From: Gloeobacter kilaueensis JS1
GTDB taxonomy: Bacteria > Cyanobacteriota > Cyanobacteriia > Gloeobacterales > Gloeobacteraceae
Assembly (NCBI RefSeq): GCF_000484535.1
Contig: NC_022600.1
Coordinates: 496,001 to 560,000 of the forward strand
Direction of reading: 5' to 3'
Length of the DNA stretch: 64,000 nucleotides
Shown here: positions 33,452-45,782 of the stretch, piece after piece
Numbering within the stretch: the stretch's first letter is position 1
Layout of the letters: each line of letters starts with the position of its first letter
Translations under genes and position numbers: made by a program
Notes under the pieces: generated by a model
What the model was told of the DNA's origin: nothing
Seen by the model: only the letters and a program-made list of their open reading frames with translations
Databases searched by the model: none

Positions 33452-35332
33452 TTACCAGATCCAGCAGCGCTGCGCCGGAGGGCGGGCCATCGCGGCACCC
33501 TCCCGGCAGCGAAAAGTCCGGGCAAAGCCGGGAAAATTTGCCAGGGGCAGATTCACCCGCCACCGCGCCGGGGCGTAGCTCGTGCTCGATCCAGGCGGTT
33601 CGCTGGCAGCCCAGAGGCGGGCGTAGCTCACATAAAAGCGCTGCTCCTGCCGGTTGCCGGTGCGCTGCAGGGCGGCATGGGCCATCCGCATCCCCTCGAA
33701 GTCGGCGACGGTTTCTGCCAGAGCCCGCCTGCCATCTACACCGGCGGCGGTGAGTTGCTGCCTGAGGCAATGGGCGCGCCGGGTAAAGCGCTGCCCATCG
33801 GCGGCGGGCCACCAGTGCTCGTAGGGATTGTCGAGCTGATCGAGGGGGCTGACGGCGTGGGTGATTTCGTGGCCGATGATGCTCCCGAGGGCACCGTAGT
33901 TGGTGGCCGCGTCCGCCAGCGGATCGAAGATGGGCGGCTGCAGGAGGCCAGCCGGTAGGGCAATCGTGTTGGTGATCGGATCGTAGGAGCTGTTGACCTC
34001 CGCCAGGCTCAGATCCCACTCGTTGCGGTCGGGCAGCCTGCCGATGCGCTCCAGGCCGCTCTGGGTAACCAGTTGCCAGGCGCGCAGGACGTTCAGGCTG
34101 TAATCGCGGCGATCGATGATCAAGCTTGAGTAGTCCCGCCAGCGATCCGGCCTGCCCACCTGGATTTGGAGGCTTACCAGCCGGTCGTGGGCGCGTTGCC
34201 GCGTCGTTTTTGAAAGCCAGGACTGGCGGGCAATCGCCTCGTCCGTCGCTGCCTTGAGATTGGCGGCGATGGTCTTAATCTGGGCCAGGGCGCGCCTGTC
34301 GAAGTAGGCGTCCACAAACGCTTCTCCCAGCGCGTCACCCAGGTAGGCATCGATCTCATCTATGCAGCGCTGCTGGCGCGGTTGGGGAGCTGTCCGTTGC
34401 TCGAATTCGTCGCTGAAGCGCTCGCCTGCACTGCGAAAGCGCGATCCAAGATACAGCGCCAGCGCGTCGAGCAGCCGCCAGCGCAAATAGACTCTCCAGC
34501 GCTCCACAGGCACGGTCTTAAGCAATCGATCGATCGCAGGGAGCAGGGCGGGCTGCTCCACCCGAAAGGCCGCCAGCCTCCCGAGCCCCCGCACCTGGAA
34601 GTACCGTCGCCAGTCGAAGCGGGGAGCGGATCTTGTCAGTTGTGCCGGGGTCATCTGCCGCGCCCGGCCACCGGAAACACCCGCCAGCTGCGCTTCGATC
34701 GCCAGCACTGTCCTGGCATCGGCGGCGGCAGTAGCCGCCGGCGCGCCGGCCAGCCTCAAAAGTTCTGAGGCGTAGCCCGCCAGAATGCGCCGCCGATCGG
34801 TGGTGGGATCGTCCAGGATCACGTTTGCCGGAGCGAGGAGCGCCCCCACTGCTCCCGTACTCTGCTCGTCGTCCGCCGTCAGACTAAAAAGCACGTCGAT
34901 GCCGTAGCTGTGCAGGCGGGTGATCACCTCCTGCAACTCGGCGCGGGTGTGAATGGCGGCGATGCGGGCCAGTTCAGGAACAATCGGCGTCAGGCCGGCG
35001 GCTTCGATCTGCTGGGTAGCGAGACAACTGGCGTAATAATCCCCCAGCTTCTGGCGGTTGCTGCCGGGCTGTCCCCGGTGGGCCGCCGCCCCTTGCAGCA
35101 ACTGCCGCAGGCGCTGTTCGTTCTGCCTGTCCAGCTCATCGAAGCGATCCCAGCTCTCATAACCGGCGGGAATCGGGTGGGTCTGCCGCCACTGGCGGTT
35201 GACAAAGCGATCGAAGTCGCGGCAGGGGGCGCAGTCACCCACTGCCTGCCTGAGCTTGCGGGGAACTGCAGCTACTGGCGCTGCAGCCAGAAGCGCAACA
35301 GCAAGAACGACAGGCAACCCGCCCCCCCTCAA
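33452..35332 (-). CDS. M13-family metallopeptidase (neprilysin-like), exported
   Basis: About 626 residues with a hydrophobic N-terminal signal, Cys-rich CAPCRDFDRFVN typical of M13 N-termini, the VNSSYDPITNTIALPAG segment, the zinc motif HEITH near residue 487 and ETVADFEG holding the third ligand. M13 enzymes cut small exported peptides. The start is uncertain: TTG at 35332, which overlaps the previous stop (TTGA), gives the best signal peptide; TTG at 35317 has a purine-rich leader. It is in a run of leftward genes that starts with a sulfotransferase cluster. Confidence 0.85.
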   Translation of the reverse strand: MRGGGLPVVLAVALLAAAPVAAVPRKLRQAVGDCAPCRDFDRFVNRQWRQTHPIPAGYESWDRFDELDRQNEQRLRQLLQGAAAHRGQPGSNRQKLGDYYASCLATQQIEAAGLTPIVPELARIAAIHTRAELQEVITRLHSYGIDVLFSLTADDEQSTGAVGALLAPANVILDDPTTDRRRILAGYASELLRLAGAPAATAAADARTVLAIEAQLAGVSGGRARQMTPAQLTRSAPRFDWRRYFQVRGLGRLAAFRVEQPALLPAIDRLLKTVPVERWRVYLRWRLLDALALYLGSRFRSAGERFSDEFEQRTAPQPRQQRCIDEIDAYLGDALGEAFVDAYFDRRALAQIKTIAANLKAATDEAIARQSWLSKTTRQRAHDRLVSLQIQVGRPDRWRDYSSLIIDRRDYSLNVLRAWQLVTQSGLERIGRLPDRNEWDLSLAEVNSSYDPITNTIALPAGLLQPPIFDPLADAATNYGALGSIIGHEITHAVSPLDQLDNPYEHWWPAADGQRFTRRAHCLRQQLTAAGVDGRRALAETVADFEGMRMAHAALQRTGNRQEQRFYVSYARLWAASEPPGSSTSYAPARWRVNLPLANFPGFARTFRCREGAAMARPPAQRCWIW

Positions 35333-35553
35333 GGATCGGTTGGGTTGGTGCGCAGATAAAATTCTTCGACCTGGGCCAAAAAATTGGCGGCCTCGATCGG
35401 ATCGTCCTTGCGGTACTGGGCGGCGAAGCACAGGCGGCAACCTTCGCGGACAAGCTGGCCCTTAGCGGTGAAGACCGGCCAGAATCCCCGCGTCGGCTGG
35501 GTGCAGACCGGGCAGGGATGAACGGGCAGCGCCTTCTGGGGCAGGTACCTCAT
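35329..35553 (-). CDS. Small protein with two CxxC motifs
   Basis: The 74-residue frame has CPVC and CRLC pairs (a likely small zinc ribbon) and a C-terminal amphipathic helix ending YLRTNPTDP. The GGAGG sequence directly abuts the ATG, which is closer than usual, so initiation is uncertain. It sits 29 bases after the dioxygenase stop and overlaps the peptidase start. No family is recognised. Confidence 0.5.
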   Translation of the reverse strand: MRYLPQKALPVHPCPVCTQPTRGFWPVFTAKGQLVREGCRLCFAAQYRKDDPIEAANFLAQVEEFYLRTNPTDP

Positions 35554-35582: not shown

Positions 35583-36479
35583 CTACAACGCAAAGGCTGC
35601 GTCTCCGAGCCGGACGTAGATGTCGCGCTGGTCGTCGGCAAAACTGCGGCGGCCATGCATGGCACGGGTGTTGTTGATCATCGCGATGTCGCCGCTCTTC
35701 CAGGGCACATCGATCGTGATTCGGCCCGCAACGGCGACCAGGTCGGCGAGCACCGCGTCGGGGATCGGCGAATCGTCCTCCAGGCGCACCAGGCTCGCCT
35801 TCGAGCCCGCCCGCTCCTGGCCCACCACCGGCAGGATGTTGTTGATAAAGGCGTCGTGCTCGCCATAGGGTGTCTTGACGACGGCGGAGGTGACGTACTC
35901 GGTGATCACCTGGCGCTCGGTCCCGACTTTGAAGGTCATCTGGTTTGCAGCACAGACCCTGGCCACCTCTTCGAGGTCGTCGCTCTGGTAGATGCCCTGC
36001 CAGGTGCCGTCGGGATAGGTGCGAATGTACTTGATGCGCTGCTCGCTAAAAAGTTGCCGCGAAGCGGAACTCAGTTCGCGCCAGAAGCGCACGCCGTCGG
36101 CGACCGTCGTCTCGCCGTCTTTGAGCGCCGGGGTGGCGCAGTAGAACCAGAGGACGCTCGGGTGCTCTTTTAGATAGTACATTTCGCCGTGCAACGGAAC
36201 GGCAAAGCGCAACTTGCCCCCGGTCACCGACATCAAGGTCTTGTTGCCGCCAATGGACTCGCGGCTGTAGGCACCGCCGACGTAGGCGCGAAAGTCGGTG
36301 CAGTAGCGGGCGGTGAACGCTAAAAAAGCCTCGGTGTCAGGCGCAAAGCCGGTGATGTAGACGTAGCCGGTCCGGCGAAAAGCGTCGATCACCGTATCGC
36401 GGTCGAGGTCGAGGGGGCTGGCAGCAGCGGTCCCCTGGAGGGTCGTACCGAACGTGTCTGTGGGAGTCTGGGTTGTCAT
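35583..36479 (-). CDS. TauD/TfdA-like Fe(II)/2-oxoglutarate dioxygenase
   Basis: A 298-residue protein with an HGE metal motif (His97-x-Glu99), the distal metal His275 in NTRAMHGRR, and the 2-oxoglutarate-binding Arg (~290, YVRLGD). Glu instead of Asp in the facial triad is typical of the clavaminate-synthase/SyrP-like branch that hydroxylates amino acids or peptides (family knowledge). The ATG at 36479 is 46 bases after the propeller-like gene. It is the last clear tailoring-type enzyme of the leftward unit. Confidence 0.85.
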   Translation of the reverse strand: MTTQTPTDTFGTTLQGTAAASPLDLDRDTVIDAFRRTGYVYITGFAPDTEAFLAFTARYCTDFRAYVGGAYSRESIGGNKTLMSVTGGKLRFAVPLHGEMYYLKEHPSVLWFYCATPALKDGETTVADGVRFWRELSSASRQLFSEQRIKYIRTYPDGTWQGIYQSDDLEEVARVCAANQMTFKVGTERQVITEYVTSAVVKTPYGEHDAFINNILPVVGQERAGSKASLVRLEDDSPIPDAVLADLVAVAGRITIDVPWKSGDIAMINNTRAMHGRRSFADDQRDIYVRLGDAAFAL

Positions 36480-36525
36480 GTCGTTATGCCTACACAGCTT
36501 TTGAACTCGATAAACGGGCGGATCT

Positions 36526-37875
36526 TCAAGATGGGCCGGGCACCAGCCAGACTTCGAGGGCGACCGGCGGGGCCGGTGCATCGGAAGCTGAATCCGACGA
36601 CAGCTGGCCCTGGGGGTTGAAGACCAGTACCAGCCCCTCCGGCGTCGAGAGGGCCGATACCAGTTCGCCCGCAGGCTGGATGCCCCACTGGTCTAGAGGC
36701 AGGCGGGTCCACTCCTCGCCGTCGCCCGTGGCAAAGAGGACGAAGGTATCTTTGATCTGCAGCCCGGCCACCAGCTGTCCCCGGTGCAGCAAAAAGCACT
36801 GCAGCACAGCGGTGGGCGCGTCGAAGCCCCGGCCCAGGGCAGCGAGGGGCACCTTCAGGCCGGTGGGCGAAAAGCGCGGTTTGCCGACGAGCAGATCCCA
36901 GCTTTGATCCGGGTAGATCCGGAAGATCTCGGGGGCGAGCACCTGGTGGCTGCGCAAGGCTGGATCGGCGCTGCCCGCGACGACGTAGAGGCAGCCATTC
37001 AACTCCGCCAGGGCTGCCACCTGCTGATTTTCAGTAAAGATATAGGCACCGCTTGTGAGCACCGCCCGGCAGTCCTGGCCGTCGGGGGTGCCCAGCCGCA
37101 AAAGTTGAAAGCCGCGATCGAGGTTGCGGGTGCCGAGGTAGAGCCCCTGCTCGAAGGAAGCAGCCTGGCTTGCGAGGATGTTGCCCTGGTCTTTGAAATT
37201 GGGTAGACGCAGCGCTTCCCAATGAGCGGCGGTGGGCGAAGGCGCTTTTAAGAGCGGCGGCGGATCTTTGCCGAGCCCGGTCGAGAGCGCCAGCCAGCTT
37301 TCGGCGAACGGCAAGATCTGATGAAAAGTAAAGGCACCGACCGCCGGGTTGCCCTCGAAGTGGGTCTGCCAGGTGCCGCCGTTTTCGCTGGTGAGCACGG
37401 TGCCGCCAAAGGGCGAGGAGAGGCTTGCCAGCAGAAGACCGCCGGGGAGCGCCAGGAGCGAGCAGAAGACGCTGCGGCCAGACCAGATCGCCTGTTCGCT
37501 CGCCAGACTCACCCCGAGCGCGTCGCTCAGCTTGTCCTTGGACTGCTCCTCGGCGACGCTGTCGGGAAAGAAGATGTCGAGCATGTCCTTTGGGCGCTTG
37601 CGCGCACTCGGATTGATCGTCGTGTTGATCGCGATCGAAGCGTGGACGGTGCGCCATTCGCCCGTCGCCGCCTCGAAGCGGACGATCCGCCGAAAATCTT
37701 GAATGTCGCGGTCGATGTAGATGCCCGCAAAGTAGAGCGTCCCCTGGTAAAAGGCGAGGGCACCGACCACCTGCTGGAGGTCGGCGAGATCTTCTTGCAC
37801 GATGCGGCCCAAAAAGTAAGGATTGTTGCCGCTGCGGGTGCCGGTGTGGCTGCTGGTCTGCGCAGAGTAGATCAC
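36526..37875 (-). CDS. Propeller-like protein of unknown function
   Basis: The 449-residue protein has no signal peptide and repeats beta-strand/Trp-rich blades (GGTWQTHFEGN, EEWTRLPLDQWG, QSWDLLVGKPRF), resembling Kelch or Asp-box propellers. It is translationally close to the sulfotransferase gene (4-base gap). No catalytic motif is evident. Its tight linkage to the sulfotransferase suggests a shared process. Confidence 0.65.
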   Translation of the reverse strand: MIYSAQTSSHTGTRSGNNPYFLGRIVQEDLADLQQVVGALAFYQGTLYFAGIYIDRDIQDFRRIVRFEAATGEWRTVHASIAINTTINPSARKRPKDMLDIFFPDSVAEEQSKDKLSDALGVSLASEQAIWSGRSVFCSLLALPGGLLLASLSSPFGGTVLTSENGGTWQTHFEGNPAVGAFTFHQILPFAESWLALSTGLGKDPPPLLKAPSPTAAHWEALRLPNFKDQGNILASQAASFEQGLYLGTRNLDRGFQLLRLGTPDGQDCRAVLTSGAYIFTENQQVAALAELNGCLYVVAGSADPALRSHQVLAPEIFRIYPDQSWDLLVGKPRFSPTGLKVPLAALGRGFDAPTAVLQCFLLHRGQLVAGLQIKDTFVLFATGDGEEWTRLPLDQWGIQPAGELVSALSTPEGLVLVFNPQGQLSSDSASDAPAPPVALEVWLVPGPS

Positions 37876-37879
37876 AGCC

Positions 37880-38842
37880 TCAGTACCCCATCTGCTGGGC
37901 CATCTCCTGGATGCCCTGGGCCGTCTCCGCGTCCACCGCCCACTCGTAGGTGCCCTTGAGAGGCGGAATGGGTACTTTGCTGTTGCGCAACTTTGGATTG
38001 GAAAGAAACTTGGGATCGTTGCCGAAGGGAGCGTTGAGCGGTCCCATCCGGGCGTAGGGCGATTTTTCGGGCGTCTTCATCTGCTCGATCGCCTCTTCGT
38101 CGGTGCGGATGCCCAGCCACTCGGCGATCTGCGGCAAATAAATATCGAGGTCCGAAAGCAAATCTTCGCCCCGGATGCGCATCCCCTGCCCCAGAGGCAG
38201 CCGCTCCATAAAAGCATTGATCTTTTGATGGGCGGTGAACCAGAGCTTGAGGGGACTGATCTTGACCCGCTTTTTGGGTTCTGGATCTTCTTCGTCGTCG
38301 ATAAAGGCCGGGTCGATGCGCCAGCCGACTTTGGCCTGCATCTCGCCCACCTGCTCGCGGGTCTGAAAGATGACGGCGATAAATTCTTGAATCGACTTGG
38401 CGGTGCCCACCGGATGGCGGGTCAGGTGCAAAAAGCGCGCCCTCGGAAACATCTGAAAGGCCCGCTCCATATTCTCGATTTTGAGAATCGTCGTGGGCGA
38501 TTTGTCTACGCCGATCTGGGGCGATACGTTGTCGAGCAGATAGTTAAAGACCTGCTCGCAGCTCATGTGCATGTGTTCGTTGATCCAGAGGCGGGCGCGG
38601 TGGACGCTCAATTCTGTCTGTACCCCTTCGTGAATCTGGGCGAGGGAGCGGGCAAGGCCGTCCATCGCCGTCGGCCAGCGCCGCTGGATGCGGGCGACGT
38701 TGAGATCTTCGAGGGTGTCGGTCTTAAACAAGTTCAGCTCCGGAAAGCCGTACAGGTCCGGATGCCGTCCGAGCAACGTCCCGACCACCGAGGAGAAGGA
38801 CCGGGGCGGCGTCAGGATGATCAGGGGCGCATAGTTTGACAC
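37880..38842 (-). CDS. Sulfotransferase (PAPS-dependent), motifs intact
   Basis: A 320-residue sulfotransferase-family protein. The 5'-phosphosulfate loop is TPPRSFSSV (residues 11-19, with Arg14), a VDKSPTT segment contains the catalytic-region Lys (about 114), and the 3'-phosphate site RHPVGTAKS gives Arg142 and Ser150. No membrane helix is present. Acceptor unknown; related enzymes sulfate polyketide-peptides, sugars or tyrosines. It is the second gene of the leftward unit and diverges from a paralogue that has lost these residues. Confidence 0.88.
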   Translation of the reverse strand: MSNYAPLIILTPPRSFSSVVGTLLGRHPDLYGFPELNLFKTDTLEDLNVARIQRRWPTAMDGLARSLAQIHEGVQTELSVHRARLWINEHMHMSCEQVFNYLLDNVSPQIGVDKSPTTILKIENMERAFQMFPRARFLHLTRHPVGTAKSIQEFIAVIFQTREQVGEMQAKVGWRIDPAFIDDEEDPEPKKRVKISPLKLWFTAHQKINAFMERLPLGQGMRIRGEDLLSDLDIYLPQIAEWLGIRTDEEAIEQMKTPEKSPYARMGPLNAPFGNDPKFLSNPKLRNSKVPIPPLKGTYEWAVDAETAQGIQEMAQQMGY

Positions 38843-38870
38843 GGGTATTTCAGCAGGGAAGTAAGCGTCG

Positions 38871-39242
38871 TTATTTTATCACTCCGTTCAGTTCGCCCAG
38901 CCGCTGCTCGACGCGGGCAAACTCGTCGGCGGTCATCTGAACGAGGGCGACCAGGGTCTTGTACTGCTGCTGCAGTTGCCGCCGGTACTCCTCAAGCTCC
39001 TCGCGATCCGAGCAGTCCATCGAAAAATCTGGAGCCTTAAACCAGTCCTGCATCCGCTTGAGAAAATCGAGGGGCAGACTGTTTTGGGGCGTCGGCGGCA
39101 TCGGTGCCACCTCCTGCTGGCGGACCGAAGGCAGCACGGGGGCGGGCCTGAGCGGCTCGGCCAGCTGCCCCTGATCGCGCCGATCGCGTATCTTCTGTAA
39201 GATGGCCTGCCGCTTTTGGGCGTCGATACTGGAGTCTGGCAT
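38871..39242 (-). CDS. Coiled-coil protein of unknown function
   Basis: The 123-residue protein has a basic N-terminal helix, a Pro-rich middle, a short DWFKAPDFSMDC segment and a C-terminal coiled coil (EELEEYRRQLQQQYKTL). It is the first gene of the leftward unit, 28 bases ahead of the sulfotransferase. No family is recognised; it lacks the double-Gly or Tyr-rich core of an exported peptide precursor. Confidence 0.6.
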   Translation of the reverse strand: MPDSSIDAQKRQAILQKIRDRRDQGQLAEPLRPAPVLPSVRQQEVAPMPPTPQNSLPLDFLKRMQDWFKAPDFSMDCSDREELEEYRRQLQQQYKTLVALVQMTADEFARVEQRLGELNGVIK

Positions 39243-39311
39243 GGTCGTACCTGGCGGTCCGTCTATCCGGACCCGAGAAAACCCATCCGATATTCTACAG
39301 TTACTGCAAAG

Positions 39312-40220
39312 ATGTCATTTGCCCAGCCGATCTTCATCCTTTCTGCCAACTGCAGCGGCAGTTCTCAACTCTCAGCGATGCTCGGCCAGCACCCCGAGAC
39401 CTACGGCCTGCCCCAGATCAACCTGCTGATGCTCGATACGGTCGAACAACTCAACTTGCTCCTGCAGGGGCCGCGCCAGTTTCAGGTCCACGGGCTCTTG
39501 CGGGCGGTCGCCCAACTCTACAGCGGCGAACAGACGATCAACGCCGTCGCGATGGCCCGCCGCTGGATCTCCAACCGCTTTTATGCCGACAGTGCCAGCG
39601 TCTACCGCCAGCTGTGCCGGCGCGTCGCCCCCCTGCGCCTCGTCGATCCGAGCACGACCTACTGTGCGGGCCGCGAACGGCTCGAACGGCTCTATGCCGC
39701 TTTTCCGGAGGCCCATTTTTTGCACCTGGTCCGCCATCCCCGCTCCCAGGGCGAGGCGGTGATCGGTATCGGCGAGGGGGCGCTCGCCATCCAGGACGGC
39801 TCGCTCGAATTTCGCACCAAAGAAGATGTGCTCGTTGACCCGCAGTACGCCTGGTACCGCTACAACGCCAACATCCGCCGCTTTTTTGGCCAACTGGCCC
39901 CCTGGCAAAAGTACACCGTGCAGTGGGAGGCGATCGTCTCTGAACCGGGCACCCACCTTGAGGCGATCTGCCGCTGGTTGGGGCTGGAATGGAACGAAGC
40001 GCTCGCAGCGGCCCTATTGCACCCGGAGCGATCGTCCTACGCGGGCTTTGGCCCCTACAGCTGCCAGCTGGGCCACGACCCCTACTTTTTGCGCCATCCG
40101 GCCTTCGTGAGCCGGCCATTGCCGCTGCCCTCCCTGAGCGGCCCCCTTTCCTGGCGCGACGACGGCCAGGAATTTTTGCCCGAGGTTCTGACCCTCGCTC
40201 GTGAATTGGGCTACAACTAA
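39312..40220 (+). CDS. Sulfotransferase-like protein with degenerate PAPS motifs
   Basis: The 302-residue protein aligns with the gene at 37880 (QHPETYGLPQINL against RHPDLYGFPELNL), but the PAPS loop reads SANCSGSSQ with no Arg/Lys, VDKSPTT is VDPSTTY, and RHPVGTAKS is RHPRSQGEA. All three substrate-binding Lys/Arg/Ser positions are altered, so it may be inactive, regulatory, or use another donor. The ATG at 39312 lies 69 bases from the divergent coiled-coil gene. Paired active/degenerate enzymes often form heterodimers (inference). Confidence 0.78.
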   Translation: MSFAQPIFILSANCSGSSQLSAMLGQHPETYGLPQINLLMLDTVEQLNLLLQGPRQFQVHGLLRAVAQLYSGEQTINAVAMARRWISNRFYADSASVYRQLCRRVAPLRLVDPSTTYCAGRERLERLYAAFPEAHFLHLVRHPRSQGEAVIGIGEGALAIQDGSLEFRTKEDVLVDPQYAWYRYNANIRRFFGQLAPWQKYTVQWEAIVSEPGTHLEAICRWLGLEWNEALAAALLHPERSSYAGFGPYSCQLGHDPYFLRHPAFVSRPLPLPSLSGPLSWRDDGQEFLPEVLTLARELGYN

Positions 40221-40282
40221 TCCTGATTGTCAGGGTGTGCCCACAGACTGTGCTTTTCTGTCATATAGTACACACAATCCGG

Positions 40283-40311
40283 TTGACAGGCGGTTGCAAA
40301 GCTGATACTAT
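40283..40311 (+). promoter_or_regulatory. Sigma-70-type promoter for the TPR gene
   Basis: TTGACA at 40283-40288 and TACTAT at 40306-40311 are separated by 17 bases, an almost ideal housekeeping promoter, with a predicted start about 25 bases before the ATG at 40345. Confidence 0.75.
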
Positions 40312-40344
40312 CGCAGTCGCGTAAGAGCCTTACTAAGTAACTGA

Positions 40345-41340
40345 ATGGCTAGTTTTACTCCCAAGGTTAATAAAGTCACTAAGACTGGACTGCGCGATCG
40401 GCTGAAGCTGGCGGCTGCATTCTTAAAAGAAAAGCGTTTCGACGAAGCTCTGCGCGAGACGAACGCCGTCCTGCAGGCTGAGCCCAATTCGGCCCAGGCG
40501 CTGTCGCTTTTAGGCAGTATTCATCTCAAGTGTCGGCGCTACGACGAAGCGCTGGCTGCCTGCCACAAGGCGCTCACCATCGACCCTCTTTCGGTGAGTG
40601 CCTGCCTCGGCGTCGGCATGGCCTACCTGCGCAAAAAAGACTTCAAGCAGGCGATGGCCGCCTTTGAAAATGCGGTCAAACTCGATCCCAAGCAGCCCAA
40701 GGTTTATATCAGCCTCGGACTTGCGATGTTCGGCCAGGAAAGATTCGACGATGCAATTCAGTACTTTTATCGGGCCCTGCGCTTTTCTCCCCAGACAGAG
40801 CTTCCTTACATCCTGATCGCGCGGGCCTGCCGCAAGCAGGGGCGCACCGCCGATGCGATCACAGCGCTTGAAGACTTGATAAAGATTCGCCCCGAAAGTT
40901 TCATCGCCCACGCGACCCTTGCCAGCATCTACCTCGACAAAAAAAACTACGAGGCCGCCGAGCAGATCTTGAACCGGGCCCTCGAGATCAAGGGCGATAA
41001 GCCCGCTCCGGCGATTTTACTCTCCCTTGCCGAGCTTTATATCGAGACCGACAGACTCGCCCCCGCCGCCGACCTCCTCCGTAGCCTGCCCTCCGCCAAA
41101 AAGATCCTGCCCCAAAAGCACAAGCTCTGGGGCGATCTCTACAGCAAGCAAAATCTCGTGCGCGAGGCCGCCGAAGAATATCGCACCGCCAGCCTGCTCG
41201 CCGCCGAAGACGACAAGGGCGACGACATCGAGATGGAGAGTCTGGTCGAAGCGGGCTCCACCAGTTGGGAGGAGCTGGCCACCACCTACCGGGCGATGGT
41301 GGGTGAGTCGCTCCTCAAGGCGCGCAAGACCCGAAACTAG
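40345..41340 (+). CDS. TPR-repeat protein
   Basis: The 331-residue protein is almost entirely tetratricopeptide repeats: about seven units such as AQALSLLGSIHLKCRRYDEA, SACLGVGMAYLRKKDFKQA and VYISLGLAMFGQERFDDA. It has no signal peptide and probably scaffolds a cytoplasmic complex. It has its own strong promoter and starts a three-gene rightward unit with the sulfatase-fold enzyme and the M50-HlyD fusion. Confidence 0.87.
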   Translation: MASFTPKVNKVTKTGLRDRLKLAAAFLKEKRFDEALRETNAVLQAEPNSAQALSLLGSIHLKCRRYDEALAACHKALTIDPLSVSACLGVGMAYLRKKDFKQAMAAFENAVKLDPKQPKVYISLGLAMFGQERFDDAIQYFYRALRFSPQTELPYILIARACRKQGRTADAITALEDLIKIRPESFIAHATLASIYLDKKNYEAAEQILNRALEIKGDKPAPAILLSLAELYIETDRLAPAADLLRSLPSAKKILPQKHKLWGDLYSKQNLVREAAEEYRTASLLAAEDDKGDDIEMESLVEAGSTSWEELATTYRAMVGESLLKARKTRN

Positions 41341-41393
41341 TTGTTTTTCTCCTGCCCACTCCACCACTACAACCGGCCAGACCGGACAGACAC

Positions 41394-42221
41394 ATGCCCA
41401 ATCACCTTGTCCAGATCGTCATGGATAGCTGCCGCTTCGACAGCTACCAGGCAGCGACCACCCCCAACATGGACCGCCTCGGCCAGGCCGAGCAGCGCTA
41501 CAGCTACGCCTCGTGGACCTCGCCCTCGCACTACACGATGTTGATGGGCATGGTGCCCCATACCAGTCCCAAAAACGTCTTCGCCTCCGAAGTCTACAAG
41601 CAGGACTTTGCCCGCTGGATCGACAGGCTCGACGTCGCGGATCTGTCTTTTAAGACTTTCGTGCCGTACCTGTCGCTACCCAAGGTGCTGCAGGATCTGG
41701 GCTACGAGACGATCGCCCGCGTCTCGATGCCGGTGCTCAACCAGACGACGAGCATGAACCGCTACTTCGACGACTACAAGCTGATGCCCAACCACAACGA
41801 CTTCAAGTCGATGGTGGCGGAGGTCGAATTTGAAGAGGACGAACCGCGCTTTTACTTTTTTAATCTGGGCGAGACCCACTATCCCTACATGCTCAACGGC
41901 GAAGACATGCCCAGAGTCTCCGGGGTCCACGGCGTCTTCAAAGAGATGGACGCGATGCTCAAAAGCGGCCAGGGGGCGGTGGCGAGCAAGTTCTTCGACG
42001 AAGGGGAGATGCAGCGGCTCCACAAGCAGCAGATCCACTGCGTCGAATATATCGACGAATTGCTCGGCCAGCTCTACCAAAAGTGTCCCGAAAACACCTA
42101 CTTTATCGTCACCGCCGACCACGGCGAGTTGTTCGGTGAGGAGGGCTACTTTGGCCACGGCCCGGTGATGCATCCCAAGTGCTTCGAGGTGCCCTTCCTC
42201 GAAGGTCTGCGTCCAGGTTAA
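41394..42221 (+). CDS. Alkaline-phosphatase/sulfatase-fold hydrolase without a formylglycine site
   Basis: A short (275 residues) member of the superfamily: MDSCRFDSY gives the first metal Asp (11), TPNMDRLG follows, and TADHGELFG plus GHG supply the second metal site. The nucleophile position, where sulfatases have Cys/Ser-x-Pro-Ser-Arg, reads TSPSH (Thr42), so it cannot form formylglycine and is more likely a phosphatase, phosphodiesterase or phosphotransferase. It is 5 bases upstream of the fusion protein. Confidence 0.78.
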   Translation: MPNHLVQIVMDSCRFDSYQAATTPNMDRLGQAEQRYSYASWTSPSHYTMLMGMVPHTSPKNVFASEVYKQDFARWIDRLDVADLSFKTFVPYLSLPKVLQDLGYETIARVSMPVLNQTTSMNRYFDDYKLMPNHNDFKSMVAEVEFEEDEPRFYFFNLGETHYPYMLNGEDMPRVSGVHGVFKEMDAMLKSGQGAVASKFFDEGEMQRLHKQQIHCVEYIDELLGQLYQKCPENTYFIVTADHGELFGEEGYFGHGPVMHPKCFEVPFLEGLRPG

Positions 42222-42226
42222 AAGCG

Positions 42227-44815
42227 ATGTACGAGCCCACCCAGAACTGCTTCAGGCGGGATCTGGTCATCGACCAGACTCTTAAAGACGGCCAGATGTG
42301 TTATCTGGTCAAAGATCCGCGCACGGGCGAAACTTACGAGTTTGGCGAAGAGGAATATTATCTCTGCCGGCTGATGGACGGCAAGCGCACCCCCCGCCAG
42401 ATCCTCTCCGATTTTGAGTCGCGCTTTGGTCTCACCATCAGCGAGGCCGACTTCGAGCCGTTTTCTCACCAGATCGCCACCTACGGTCTGCTCGAAACCT
42501 GCGGCAGCGGCGGCGTCGCCGTCGCTGCCAGACCCAAAAGCGACTCGTCCATCGCCTTCAAAGACGCCGACGGCTCCGAGCAGACCAAAAAGGCTTACAA
42601 GTGGTACTTCCCCTGGATGGCCCCGGTATTCACCGTGGTCGCCCAGGGGCTCTCGCCCTTTCATCTGATCTTCAAGTTCATCTCGCTTTTGCTCATCCCG
42701 GCGCTGCCCCTCGCGGTGCTGACGCTGCTCAACAACCAGACGGTCTTCTTTCGCGATTTCAACAACTACGTCTCGCCGGTGGGTGGTTTTGTCCGCCACT
42801 TCGTCAACATGCTCGCGGTCAACTTTTTGGCCAAGACCTCGATGGCGATCGTCGTCGCCCACTACGGCGTGCCGATGCGCAAGTTTGGTCTGCAGCTGGT
42901 GTTTGGCTTCTTTCCGCGCTTTAACGTCGCCAAGGACCCGATCTTTCGCTACTTGAGCCGCGAAGAGCAGATGTGGACGTTTGCGACGCCGCTGTTGCTG
43001 CGGGCTGTAATCTTTTGCCTGGGCATTTTCTTGTGGTTTCTCAATCGCGGCGGCGGCAACAGTCTGGCGGCCTGGGCGGTGTCGTGGAGCTTTTTGGCCT
43101 TTATCGACATCGTCATCGATATCAACCCGCTTTTGCCGGGGGACGCCTACGGCTGGGTGGTCAACTACTTTCGCTGGCCGCCCAACCTCTACAAGCGCAA
43201 CCTGCAGATTATCGAGCGGATGATCCGCTTCCAGGGTCTGCCCAGCACGATCGCCCTTGGCGAGCGGATCAGGCTGCTGGTGGCGGCAATTGCCATCGGC
43301 ATCTCGTGGTCCGCCCTGTTTATCTTTATTACGCTCCACAGCGCCGAGTCGTTGATGGAACTGATCCCAGGGCTTTTGGGCCAGGGCCTGGGAGTACTAT
43401 TGTTTTGCCTGCCTTTTCCTCTCGCTTTACGTTGGTGGTTTGTCGTGCGCGATCGAACGAACAGTCAGAACACGTCCTCGAACCTGGGCAACGATAGCCC
43501 CGGTGCCATTGCGCCTACCAGTGGCGAGGGCAATCTCCAGTACACCGGTGCGAGCACGGCCCTCCAGCGCCCGGCTCCCCCCGCCGATCCCTGGGTAACA
43601 GTGCGCAAGATCCTGCCCTGGGCTCTGCTGGTCCTGTTTATAATCGTCCTTCTGCTGCCTTACACCTATCACTACGGCGGGGCGATTCAGCTGTTGCCCC
43701 CGCGCCAGGAGAAGATCACTCCCGAAGTCGAGGGCACCCTCGAAAAGATCTACTTCAAAGGGGGCGATCCGGCCTACATCAAAGCCGGGACGCCGCTCGC
43801 GGTGCTGCACTCCTCCGACACCGACAACAAAGTCAAGACCACCCTCCAGCAGGTGAGTATGCAGCAGGCGGCCCTGGCCAAGGACCAGCAGGAACTGGAA
43901 AAGCTCCTGCACACGCCCAGGCCAGAAGATGTCCAGGTCGCCCTCCAGCAGGTCGAGGTCGCCAAAAAAGACCTGACCGTTGCCCAGGCCCAACTGCAGA
44001 CCGACCAGAGCCAGGCGGCCTTTGAAGACCGCAACGCCAGCCGCCAGCTCGCCCTCTATCAAGATGGCGCTGCCGCCTTCGAGACCTACGACAACGCCAA
44101 AAAGCAGGCGGAGACTGCCCGCATCCAGGTGCTCAAGTCCCAGCAGGCGGTGGCGAGCGCCCAGCAGTCCGTCAGCCGCGCCGAGGCCAACCTCCGCCAG
44201 GTCAAGGCCGGTCCCTACCCCCAGGAGATCGAGGCGGCCCGCAAACAGGTCGATCAAGACGCCGCCGATCTGAGGCGGCTGGAGCAGGAGCTGACCTACT
44301 GGAAGCAGCAGTTCGCCTACACGACGATCAAGATGCCCTTCGACGGCTATCTGGTCACCCCCAACCTCGACTTCAAAGTCGGCAGCCGCCTCAAGCAGGG
44401 GGATGTACTGGCGGTGGCCGAGAGTGCGCGCAAGATCGTCGGCACCCTCCAGATGCCCGAGTACCAGGTGGGCGAGGGGGGCTTCAAAGTCGGCAACGAG
44501 GTCGAGGTCAAGCTCTGGGCCTACCCCAACGAATCGTTCAAAGGCAAAGTCACGTCGATCGAGCCGGTCGCCACGGCCCTCGACGATCCGAACAAATCGG
44601 GCCGGGTCAGCTACGGCGCGGACCCGAACGCCGATGTGACGAGCACCGCCCGCTACGTCAACGTAAATGTCGAGGTGCCCAACGCCAAAGGTCTGATGAA
44701 ATCGGGCATGACCGGCTACGCCAAGATCACCGGCAACACCGAGACGGTGATCCAGGCGTTTACCCACCCGGTGGTGCGCTTCTTCAAGATCGAGCTGTGG
44801 AGCTGGTTGCCGTAG
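42227..44815 (+). CDS. PqqD-like / pseudo-M50 protease / HlyD adaptor fusion
   Basis: An 862-residue protein with three parts. Residues ~1-85 match the PqqD-like winged domain found on peptide zinc metalloprotease homologues (FGEEEYYLCRLMDGKRT). Residues ~125-440 form a polytopic M50/site-2-protease-like domain, but the expected HExxH is AKTSM (202-206) while the late NPLL-D motif survives (Asp306). From ~455 a membrane helix leads to a HlyD adaptor: EVEGTLEKIYFKGGD, a long coiled coil (~530-720) and a beta-barrel. It would link an inner-membrane exporter to an outer channel. No ABC ATPase lies nearby. Confidence 0.8.
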   Translation: MYEPTQNCFRRDLVIDQTLKDGQMCYLVKDPRTGETYEFGEEEYYLCRLMDGKRTPRQILSDFESRFGLTISEADFEPFSHQIATYGLLETCGSGGVAVAARPKSDSSIAFKDADGSEQTKKAYKWYFPWMAPVFTVVAQGLSPFHLIFKFISLLLIPALPLAVLTLLNNQTVFFRDFNNYVSPVGGFVRHFVNMLAVNFLAKTSMAIVVAHYGVPMRKFGLQLVFGFFPRFNVAKDPIFRYLSREEQMWTFATPLLLRAVIFCLGIFLWFLNRGGGNSLAAWAVSWSFLAFIDIVIDINPLLPGDAYGWVVNYFRWPPNLYKRNLQIIERMIRFQGLPSTIALGERIRLLVAAIAIGISWSALFIFITLHSAESLMELIPGLLGQGLGVLLFCLPFPLALRWWFVVRDRTNSQNTSSNLGNDSPGAIAPTSGEGNLQYTGASTALQRPAPPADPWVTVRKILPWALLVLFIIVLLLPYTYHYGGAIQLLPPRQEKITPEVEGTLEKIYFKGGDPAYIKAGTPLAVLHSSDTDNKVKTTLQQVSMQQAALAKDQQELEKLLHTPRPEDVQVALQQVEVAKKDLTVAQAQLQTDQSQAAFEDRNASRQLALYQDGAAAFETYDNAKKQAETARIQVLKSQQAVASAQQSVSRAEANLRQVKAGPYPQEIEAARKQVDQDAADLRRLEQELTYWKQQFAYTTIKMPFDGYLVTPNLDFKVGSRLKQGDVLAVAESARKIVGTLQMPEYQVGEGGFKVGNEVEVKLWAYPNESFKGKVTSIEPVATALDDPNKSGRVSYGADPNADVTSTARYVNVNVEVPNAKGLMKSGMTGYAKITGNTETVIQAFTHPVVRFFKIELWSWLP

Positions 44816-44819
44816 CGCT

Positions 44820-45782
44820 CTAGCGCACAGCGATCGTCGCCTGCCCCACACTTTCAGCTTCGAGCCGTCCGGAACGCAGGTACTCCTGGGCCGGGCGGTT
44901 CGCTTTAAGATAGGCGTCCCAGAAAGCGAGGGTCGCCGTCGCCGTGTAGGCGTGGATCTGCTCGGGAGCAATCGCCGGACGGGCTCCCCGCCGGGCCGCC
45001 CCGGCGCGCATCAGCCCTCCGAGCCGGGCGCGCACGCCGCTCGCCTCCCCTTCGCCGGGAGCCTGGCCCGAGAAACCAAAGTGGGGCGCTCCCTCGATCA
45101 CGATCAGGTACTTGTCCCCCGGCGGCATGTTGTAGAAAGGCTCCATGCGCCACTCGGGGGGTTGGCCGCCCCGGCCCCGGTCCTCGCTGCCGGTAATCGT
45201 GAGCACCGGCTTTGTCATTGCCCGCCAGGAATTGGGCCTCAAGCCATTGAGGCCGGAGCCCTGGGGGGAGATGGTCACAAACGCCTGGGCGCGTTCGTCT
45301 CGAAAACTGGAGGCCGGCGCACCGGGCAGGTCCACCAGCGCCCCTGCGAGCATCGTCGCCGTAAATGCCCCAAAAGAATGGCCACCGATACCGATGCAGC
45401 CGGTGTCGAGCTTACCAACGAGTTCCTCCACCTGCCGGTTGAGCGATCCCAATTCGTCCAGCAAAAAGCGCATATCCTCGACCCGGTTGAGCCACTGCAC
45501 CGGATCGTCGTTGGTCTCGATGACGCCCCTCAAGCCCCCGGTGCGGTATACGGACGTATCGCTGCCGTAGTGGGTCGGATGGACGCTCACGTAGCCGTGG
45601 GCGGCCAGGTAGCGGCCCAGGTAATCGTAGGAATCTTTTGATCCGCCGGAACCGTGGGAAAAAAGCACCACCGGAAAGACGCCCTCCGGCGATGGATAAA
45701 AGATCTTGACGGGCACCTCCCGACTGCGCTTCCCATCGACCAGTTCCAACGCCTCGATCACACCCACTTCGCTCATTTGCAT
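44820..45782 (-). CDS. Alpha/beta hydrolase (dienelactone-hydrolase / PAF-acetylhydrolase-like)
   Basis: A 320-residue hydrolase with oxyanion segment FSHGSGGS, nucleophile elbow GHSFG (Ser), and a C-terminal GAPHFGF His. The Asp is probably in TITGSEDRG. No signal peptide is seen. It is convergent with the M50-HlyD gene (4 bases between stops) and divergent from rpiB. The substrate is unknown. Confidence 0.85.
   Translation of the reverse strand: MQMSEVGVIEALELVDGKRSREVPVKIFYPSPEGVFPVVLFSHGSGGSKDSYDYLGRYLAAHGYVSVHPTHYGSDTSVYRTGGLRGVIETNDDPVQWLNRVEDMRFLLDELGSLNRQVEELVGKLDTGCIGIGGHSFGAFTATMLAGALVDLPGAPASSFRDERAQAFVTISPQGSGLNGLRPNSWRAMTKPVLTITGSEDRGRGGQPPEWRMEPFYNMPPGDKYLIVIEGAPHFGFSGQAPGEGEASGVRARLGGLMRAGAARRGARPAIAPEQIHAYTATATLAFWDAYLKANRPAQEYLRSGRLEAESVGQATIAVR

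Follow-up and report, generated by a model that had tools for sequence, protein, structure and literature searches.

A conserved sulfotransferase and HlyD-adaptor gene block of Gloeobacter and its Pfa-like polyketide synthase partner

Gene content and conservation of the block

A 64-kb stretch of the Gloeobacter kilaueensis JS1 genome (NC_022600.1, positions 496,001 to 560,000; here called the window, in whose numbering gene coordinates are given) carries a compact block in which two sulfotransferases (STs) are found together with an HlyD-type adaptor. Annotation of open reading frames and Pfam domains in the window located eight genes at 35583–44815, arranged as two divergent units (Table 1). 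The leftward unit comprises, in order, the genes of a coiled-coil protein, the sulfotransferase ST1, a propeller and a TauD dioxygenase; the rightward unit comprises those of a second sulfotransferase (ST2), a TPR protein, a sulfatase-fold enzyme and a protein that joins PqqD-like, transmembrane (TM) and HlyD parts. Sulfotransfer_3 matched both ST1 (6e-18) and ST2 (2e-27), and the propeller and coiled-coil proteins gave no convincing Pfam match. Gaps between genes within the block measure 4–124 bp. A preliminary description of this DNA, made from the letters alone, had placed eight genes here in two back-to-back units and read them as one system tailoring and exporting a peptide or glycan; the genes are present, and their families are mostly as it named them. 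Below, G### denotes genomes examined (G000 is the source genome, one contig of 4,724,791 bases) and L### extracted loci.

Table 1. Coordinates of the block and its convergent neighbor in the 64-kb window.
Feature	Coordinates	Strand	Basis
TauD-type Fe(II)/2-oxoglutarate (2OG) dioxygenase, likely hydroxylase	35583–36479	-	Pfam TauD 5e-37
Beta-propeller protein propB	36526–37875	-	AlphaFold model
ST1, sulfotransferase dependent on 3′-phosphoadenosine 5′-phosphosulfate (PAPS)	37880–38842	-	Pfam Sulfotransfer_3 and motif alignment
Small coiled-coil protein, 123 aa, conserved accessory	38871–39242	-	Homologues at equivalent positions elsewhere
Intergenic region separating the divergent units, 69 bp	39243–39311	.	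Coiled-coil to ST2 start codons
ST2, motif-degenerate sulfotransferase	39312–40220	+	Pfam Sulfotransfer_3 and alignment
TPR protein, conserved N-terminus FTPKxKKx	40345–41340	+	Pfam TPR
Alkaline-phosphatase-superfamily (sulfatase-fold) enzyme, Thr nucleophile TxPxH	41394–42221	+	Pfam Sulfatase 3e-12
Exporter adaptor PqqD-like/TM/HlyD	42227–44815	+	HlyD_D23 2e-11
Ninth gene abhX, alpha/beta hydrolase, chlorophyllase/PAF-acetylhydrolase-like esterase	44820–45782	-	Pfam; convergent with HlyD gene

Comparison of each gene with 18-kb regions showed that three other genomes of the genus Gloeobacter (four in all) carry all eight genes with order and orientation unchanged; here and below, we take G001 to be G. 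violaceus and G003 to be G. morelensis. Identities to the other Gloeobacter proteins are 68–72% for TauD, 55–56% for the propeller, 80% for ST1 and 56–57% for the coiled-coil protein in the leftward unit, and 64% for ST2, 59% for TPR, 83% for the sulfatase-fold enzyme and 54% for HlyD in the rightward one. The M13 peptidase, the CxxC open reading frame and the adjoining alcohol dehydrogenase have no relative beside the block in the three other genomes, so the conserved unit stops at the TauD gene; the first two, which had been counted as members of the leftward unit, are accordingly left out of it. Since the flanks vary among Gloeobacter genomes, it is the block that is conserved and not the whole region.

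The M13 peptidase frame (33452–35553) overlaps a same-strand CxxC frame of 74 aa (35329–35553), and the true start of one of the two probably lies further in. Further away, at 2508–27908, there is a long series of sugar-nucleotide, glycosyltransferase and O-acyltransferase-like genes, probably for a surface polysaccharide. Within the block, TTGACA-17-TACTAT, with TG ahead of the second hexamer, occurs at 40283–40311 in the 124 bp that precede the TPR gene; this may be a separate promoter for the TPR, sulfatase-fold and HlyD genes, such motifs being no commoner in the region than expected by chance.

Association with a Pfa-like polyketide synthase

The sulfatase-fold gene is patchily distributed: homologues with 72–78% identity occur in G056, G345 and G413, yet a search of 386 genomes gave only seven matches. 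The DNA around these matches carries TPR, HlyD, ST2-like and propeller-like genes within large clusters for a PfaD/PfaA-like polyketide synthase (PKS), which also hold an acyl carrier protein (ACP), a type I phosphodiesterase, short-chain dehydrogenases/reductases, an alpha/beta hydrolase and adenosine 5′-phosphosulfate (APS) kinase. The last, a supplier of PAPS, lies within three of the clusters (G413, G056 and G339). This context shifted the question from peptide export to the tailoring of a lipid or polyketide.

The PKS of the G413 cluster (1671 aa) has orthologues with 50–64% identity over at least the KS-AT part, and one is encoded by every carrier of the HlyD fusion among 13 genomes queried (G000–G003, G007, G008, G015, G021, G056, G345 and G413). 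The source-genome orthologue lies at C1 3,853,083–3,857,870, about 3.3 Mb from the block, in a locus (~3.845–3.861 Mb) shared with the first PKS gene, propA and genes for an ACP and a type I phosphodiesterase; propA is a longer paralogue of propB located in PKS loci. The first PKS protein has the domain order ER(NMO)-KS-MAT-ACPx3-KR-DH and the second KS-AT-DH-PPTase (Pfam, L078 and L081 proteins). Judged by these predicted domains, the partner is a Pfa-like secondary lipid synthase, iterative type I, as defined by Shulse and Allen (PMC3098273). Another PKS of G. violaceus, at 2.07–2.10 Mb, was considered as the orthologue and rejected, its KS matches reaching only ~28–45%; the true orthologue is at 4.43 Mb.

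Co-occurrence was counted across a single set of 386 cyanobacterial genomes. With a threshold of >50% identity, the PKS is present in seven (G000, G056, G306, G339, G345, G361 and G413), spread over five families; a 39% match in G216 was excluded as hgl-like. The PqqD-like/HlyD protein occurs in eight, namely all seven PKS genomes and G186. Close ST relatives, defined by at least 37% identity and E ≤ 2e-49 (one 31% match, in G228, was excluded), are found in five, all of them PKS carriers (G000, G339, G345, G361 and G413). The hypergeometric probabilities, 3e-14 for PKS with HlyD and 3e-10 for PKS with ST, are too favorable, since genomes that share ancestry do not count as independent observations. 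The propA gene, searched for in 367 genomes, was found in six PKS genomes and in G228. Physical linkage points the same way: HlyD adjoins the PKS or lies within a few kb of it in six of the seven genomes (G056, G306, G339, G345, G361 and G413), Gloeobacter being the only distant case, where linkage rests on co-occurrence and orthology. From these comparisons, the block very probably belongs to the pathway of the Pfa-like PKS. The genes panD-like in character at L102 4743–5120, near the G003 PKS locus, and at L101 3618–4028, beside the G186 cluster, may supply a pantetheine precursor or be chance neighbors.

When 84,980 species genomes were scanned with the HlyD alignment, eleven loci emerged; these were surveyed by profiles, using a PqqD-M50 profile for the adaptor. 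In Symplocastrum torsivum (L106), propA, TauD (54%), propB, two ST1 genes, the coiled-coil gene and TPR are followed by HlyD, the esterase and ST2, so that this locus equals the Gloeobacter block minus the sulfatase-fold gene. Homologues thus co-occur in the four Gloeobacter genomes and Symplocastrum and are not scattered, in keeping with the preliminary view of the block as one system. A Prochloron bin (L113) has ACP-ST, a hydrolase, propA, HlyD, propB, two ST1 genes, a coiled-coil-like gene, TPR and the start of the PKS. G339 combines ST2-HlyD-PKS with propB-ST1-APS kinase ~34 kb off, in G008 the PKS follows immediately on the TPR and sulfatase-fold genes, and in G345 parts of the system lie at two sites ~20–30 kb apart. 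TPR homologues are present in most clusters; coiled-coil homologues occupy equivalent positions in L035–L037 and L106 and are weaker in L083, L105, L111 and L113. The esterase gene abhX recurs inside clusters L083, L105, L106, L107, L109 and L111, as well as close to the Gloeobacter PKS loci L077, L081 and L102, and was therefore added as a ninth gene. Several clusters include a Rieske oxygenase and L109 three PhyH-like genes, so additional oxidation appears to be a recurring theme.

In G186 (L100 18379–19501; L101 39–3146, 4048–8460), HlyD-type and TPR genes accompany a nonribosomal peptide synthetase (NRPS) instead of a PKS, with C-A-PCP-ST-TE as its last protein. This suggests that the HlyD/TPR export pair goes with assembly-line products generally, and the pair may work for different assembly lines. 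The cluster of L105, from a bin labelled Tatlockia sp., is nearly identical to that of Chroococcus L111; the contig is probably cyanobacterial sequence in a misassigned bin. Distant HlyD-type relatives beyond cyanobacteria occur at L114 405–12232 (Desulfobulbaceae) and L112 328–2781 (Parvularculaceae), and L114 also carries the propeller, a TPR protein and a CoA-transferase end.

This partnership bears on whether the block instead makes and exports a sulfated polysaccharide. Sugar-polymer genes do lie ~8 kb away in the same window (~2.5–28 kb, with glycosyltransferase and sugar-nucleotide genes), but the block itself has no glycosyltransferase, the sugar region is not beside it in the other Gloeobacter genomes and the recurrent partner is a PKS. 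We consider a polysaccharide product very improbable.

Sulfotransferases, tailoring enzymes and the adaptor

The earlier distinction between an intact and a degenerate sulfotransferase is borne out by motif alignment. ST1 retains the PAPS-binding motifs PRSFSS (5′), DKSPT and RHPx5S (3′). Those of Gloeobacter ST2 have been lost, PRS being replaced by NCS, DKS by DPS and the Ser of the 3′ motif by Ala (R→C, K→P and S→A at the binding positions), and this protein is probably not catalytic; its orthologues in G008, G015, G339, G345 and G361 retain the motifs. The nearest solved structures are the ST domains of CurM (1e-36) and of olefin synthase, OLS (3e-31), with tyrosine sulfotransferases at ~1e-10; ST1 matched the CurM ST structure 4gbm at 3e-16. 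In a tree, ST1 proteins form one clade (support 100/98), with ST2 as a weakly supported group alongside, and ACP-ST and NRPS-ST proteins form a separate group (98/97). Neither ST1 nor ST2 is fused to an ACP as in the CurM type or embedded between ACP and thioesterase; both are stand-alone proteins.

The likeness to CurM and OLS raises the possibility that sulfate serves as a leaving group, as in curacin and OLS biosynthesis: a beta-hydroxyacyl-ACP would be sulfated, and its release by a thioesterase would expel CO2 and sulfate and leave a terminal alkene. A thioesterase-like hydrolase adjoins PKS/ACP genes in many clusters, and two loci encode true ACP-ST fusions (L109 1639–2973, matching CurM ST at 1e-62, and L113 1210–2505), each followed by such a hydrolase near a Pfa-like PKS; these two may represent a new route to terminal alkenes. 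However, the same loci hold ST1 or ST2 as well, which makes these dispensable for the alkene step, and the stand-alone proteins group apart from the fused ones. Moreover, no thioesterase-like hydrolase was found at the Gloeobacter block or PKS locus, and two STs and an exporter would be left unexplained. We regard an alkene product as rather unlikely. Because L109 and L113 carry both kinds of ST, the stand-alone enzymes probably do something other than alkene-forming sulfation; we infer that they perform a lasting O-sulfation of a hydroxyl.

The preliminary assignment of an HxE-type Fe/2OG dioxygenase also stands: the triad H97-x-E99...H275 of the TauD protein is invariant in four homologues, including that of Symplocastrum at 54% identity, and its retention makes the protein a likely active hydroxylase. 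The suggestion of a propeller-like protein agrees with the AlphaFold model of propB (predicted local distance difference test 78, predicted template modelling score 0.80), which matched propellers at Z ~22 and is predicted to be a genuine propeller without a specific functional match. The biosynthetic enzyme CylK was among its structural matches (Z 21.6); many unrelated propellers tie with that score, and no function was drawn from it. Wherever found, propB adjoins ST1 (L035–L037, L096, L106 and L113).

The sulfatase-fold protein lacks the C/S-x-P-x-R formylglycine motif of sulfatases proper and has T42-x-P-x-H in all nine homologues, Thr thus standing at the position where the absence of a formylglycine residue had been remarked on. 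D11, T42, D242, H243 and H255 are invariant in the nine, so that the metal-binding Asp/His residues and alcohol nucleophile of the alkaline phosphatase superfamily are present; the protein is more likely a Thr-type phospho- or sulfo-hydrolase or transferase. Relatives with 55% identity lie at L058 8989–9888 and L059 9965–10861 in the related genomes G036 and G012, which have neither the PKS nor the HlyD-type fusion; the enzyme can therefore have another context. The presence of two phosphatase/sulfatase-fold enzymes in the pathway, the absence of close ST relatives from the G056 and G306 clusters and the lack of a linked pump gene would fit a scheme in which the pathway is as proposed and its final product is unsulfated or unexported, the STs and alkaline-phosphatase-superfamily enzymes serving transient activation and deactivation and HlyD a structural or sensing role. 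The recurrence of APS kinase, of more than one ST and of a complete EmrA-like adaptor speaks against it, and we think such a scheme improbable.

The adaptor consists of a PqqD-like part (~42227–42500), a membrane region (~42620–43483) and an EmrA/HlyD-type periplasmic part (~43589–44815). The preliminary reading of it as PqqD-like/pseudo-M50/HlyD holds firmly for HlyD: HlyD_D23 scores above its cut-off, and the last ~400 residues resemble EmrA in fold (4tko, Z 17.3 over residues 479–837, 323 aligned, root-mean-square deviation 11.4). Structure matches are restricted to residues 460–842 and leave the PqqD-like and membrane halves uncovered. PqqD is the best or near-best match of the N-terminal 90 residues in four homologues, at sub-threshold scores (E 0.016–0.18; 13–16 bits vs 23.4), and a PDB sequence search with this domain gave no match. 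The membrane region has no M50 Pfam match and no HExxH in the alignment; its resemblance to M50, seen by eye, lies in a YGxxVxxFGxxxxFGFxPRF stretch and NxxSK at the HExxH position. In G306, and partly in G007, the PqqD-plus-membrane half and the HlyD half are encoded separately, which argues that they act together. A WSWxP motif is near-invariant at the C-terminus of the homologues.

RaxST and RaxA of Xanthomonas are a sulfotransferase and an HlyD-type adaptor, and the block too pairs these two functions. On that analogy, the preliminary description had favored a peptide or glycan; in a Rax-like system a ribosomal peptide would be hydroxylated, sulfated and exported, with the PqqD-like domain binding its leader. 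A sub-threshold PqqD-like N-terminus, HlyD adaptor, sulfotransferase and dioxygenase are indeed co-located. However, small precursor frames looked for in the block were not found, and gaps of at most 124 bp leave no room for one there, a remote precursor being conceivable. The block also lacks a peptidase-containing (RaxB-type) ABC exporter and any radical-SAM or YcaO gene, its STs are of the CurM kind and far from tyrosine sulfotransferases, and its partnership with a lipid/polyketide synthase is nearly perfect. A Rax-like peptide system is, in our judgment, highly unlikely.

A candidate lipid pathway and its relation to known systems

Taken together, the comparisons lead us to favor, with some confidence, a reading of the block as the tailoring, sulfation and export arm for a PKS-made long-chain lipid that is hydroxylated, O-sulfated and exported. 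The Pfa-like iterative type I fatty acid synthase/PKS, encoded elsewhere with ACP, type I phosphodiesterase and propA, would make a long hydroxylated acyl chain, to which the HxE dioxygenase would add a hydroxyl or oxidize one. ST1 would transfer sulfate from PAPS to a hydroxyl, possibly together with a non-catalytic ST2, and the Thr-type alkaline-phosphatase-superfamily enzyme and the esterase would remove or transfer groups. Passage of the product to the outer envelope or the outside would fall to the PqqD-like/HlyD protein, acting with an inner-membrane pump and an outer-membrane channel that are not linked to the block. The gene set, its conservation, the PKS partnership, the intact or lost motifs and the adaptor fold are observed, whereas we infer the lipid nature of the product, the order of the steps, the retention of sulfate and the direction of transport.

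Several observations weigh against this pathway. PKS and block are unlinked in Gloeobacter, the co-occurrence statistics ignore shared ancestry, and some loci derive from metagenome bins. The G056 and G306 clusters show that sulfation is not invariant, Gloeobacter ST2 is degenerate, and the nearest characterized STs use sulfate as a leaving group. There is no pump gene within the block.

Among described systems, the partner PKS resembles Pfa/hgl-type synthases, whose acyl products are long (C20 or longer), in its ER(PfaD-like)-KS-MAT-ACPs-KR-DH and KS-AT-DH-PPTase arrangement. Islands of hgl-like genes with unknown product have been reported in G. violaceus (PMC11804610; type O of PMC3098273), and the type O cluster may be the present PKS locus; the main texts of both papers describe them without mention of sulfotransferases or of such an export and tailoring set. 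The ST-thioesterase pairs of CurM and OLS share the ST family and PAPS motifs and act on polyketide or fatty acyl substrates, whereas ST1 and ST2 stand alone in a separate group, with both kinds in two loci. According to the available part of the report on the adipostatin cluster of Streptomyces davaonensis, a polyketide synthase, the sulfotransferase AdpST and a PAPS-supply cassette in one cluster give sulfated lipids (PMC12135136), a precedent that supports the sulfated-lipid interpretation; in contrast to our clusters, that PKS is type III, the ST is different, and the same part describes no HlyD, propeller, TPR or alkaline-phosphatase-superfamily genes. The adaptor shares the EmrA fold with membrane fusion proteins of EmrAB-TolC and differs in its extra N-terminal PqqD-like and multi-helix membrane region and its C-terminal WSWxP. 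Searches of mostly open-access literature found no paper on this gene set, on a Gloeobacter sulfotransferase with HlyD, or on PqqD with HlyD and M50, in line with the preliminary statement that no such system was described.

Overall, the block is a genuine and conserved pathway module that has apparently not been described before; its general kind (a sulfated assembly-line lipid with its export) is known, and its parts are unusual. More tentatively, and as a possibility we rate below even chances, it may represent an old class of cyanobacterial long-chain polyketide lipids that are O-sulfated and exported, extending from Gloeobacterales through Prochloron, Symplocastrum and Chroococcus. In this view, a distinct Pfa-like synthase would build the lipids, a stand-alone branch of the CurM ST family would sulfate them, with a catalytic/degenerate pair in Gloeobacter, and they would be exported by a new kind of adaptor in which a PqqD-like carrier-recognition domain is fused to a membrane domain resembling an inactive protease and to an EmrA-like protein.

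A 2025 PNAS survey of heterocyst-glycolipid evolution treats the lipids of basal cyanobacteria, such as G. violaceus, as an open question (PMC11804610). The present analysis singles out a specific PKS and sulfation/export set, whose product could be searched for in culturable Gloeobacter strains, and the adaptor fusion and degenerate ST partner would interest enzymologists and natural-product chemists. If the proposed pathway is correct, the sulfated envelope lipid of these cyanobacteria, which lack thylakoids, would represent a surface molecule of a new type and might serve as a biomarker.

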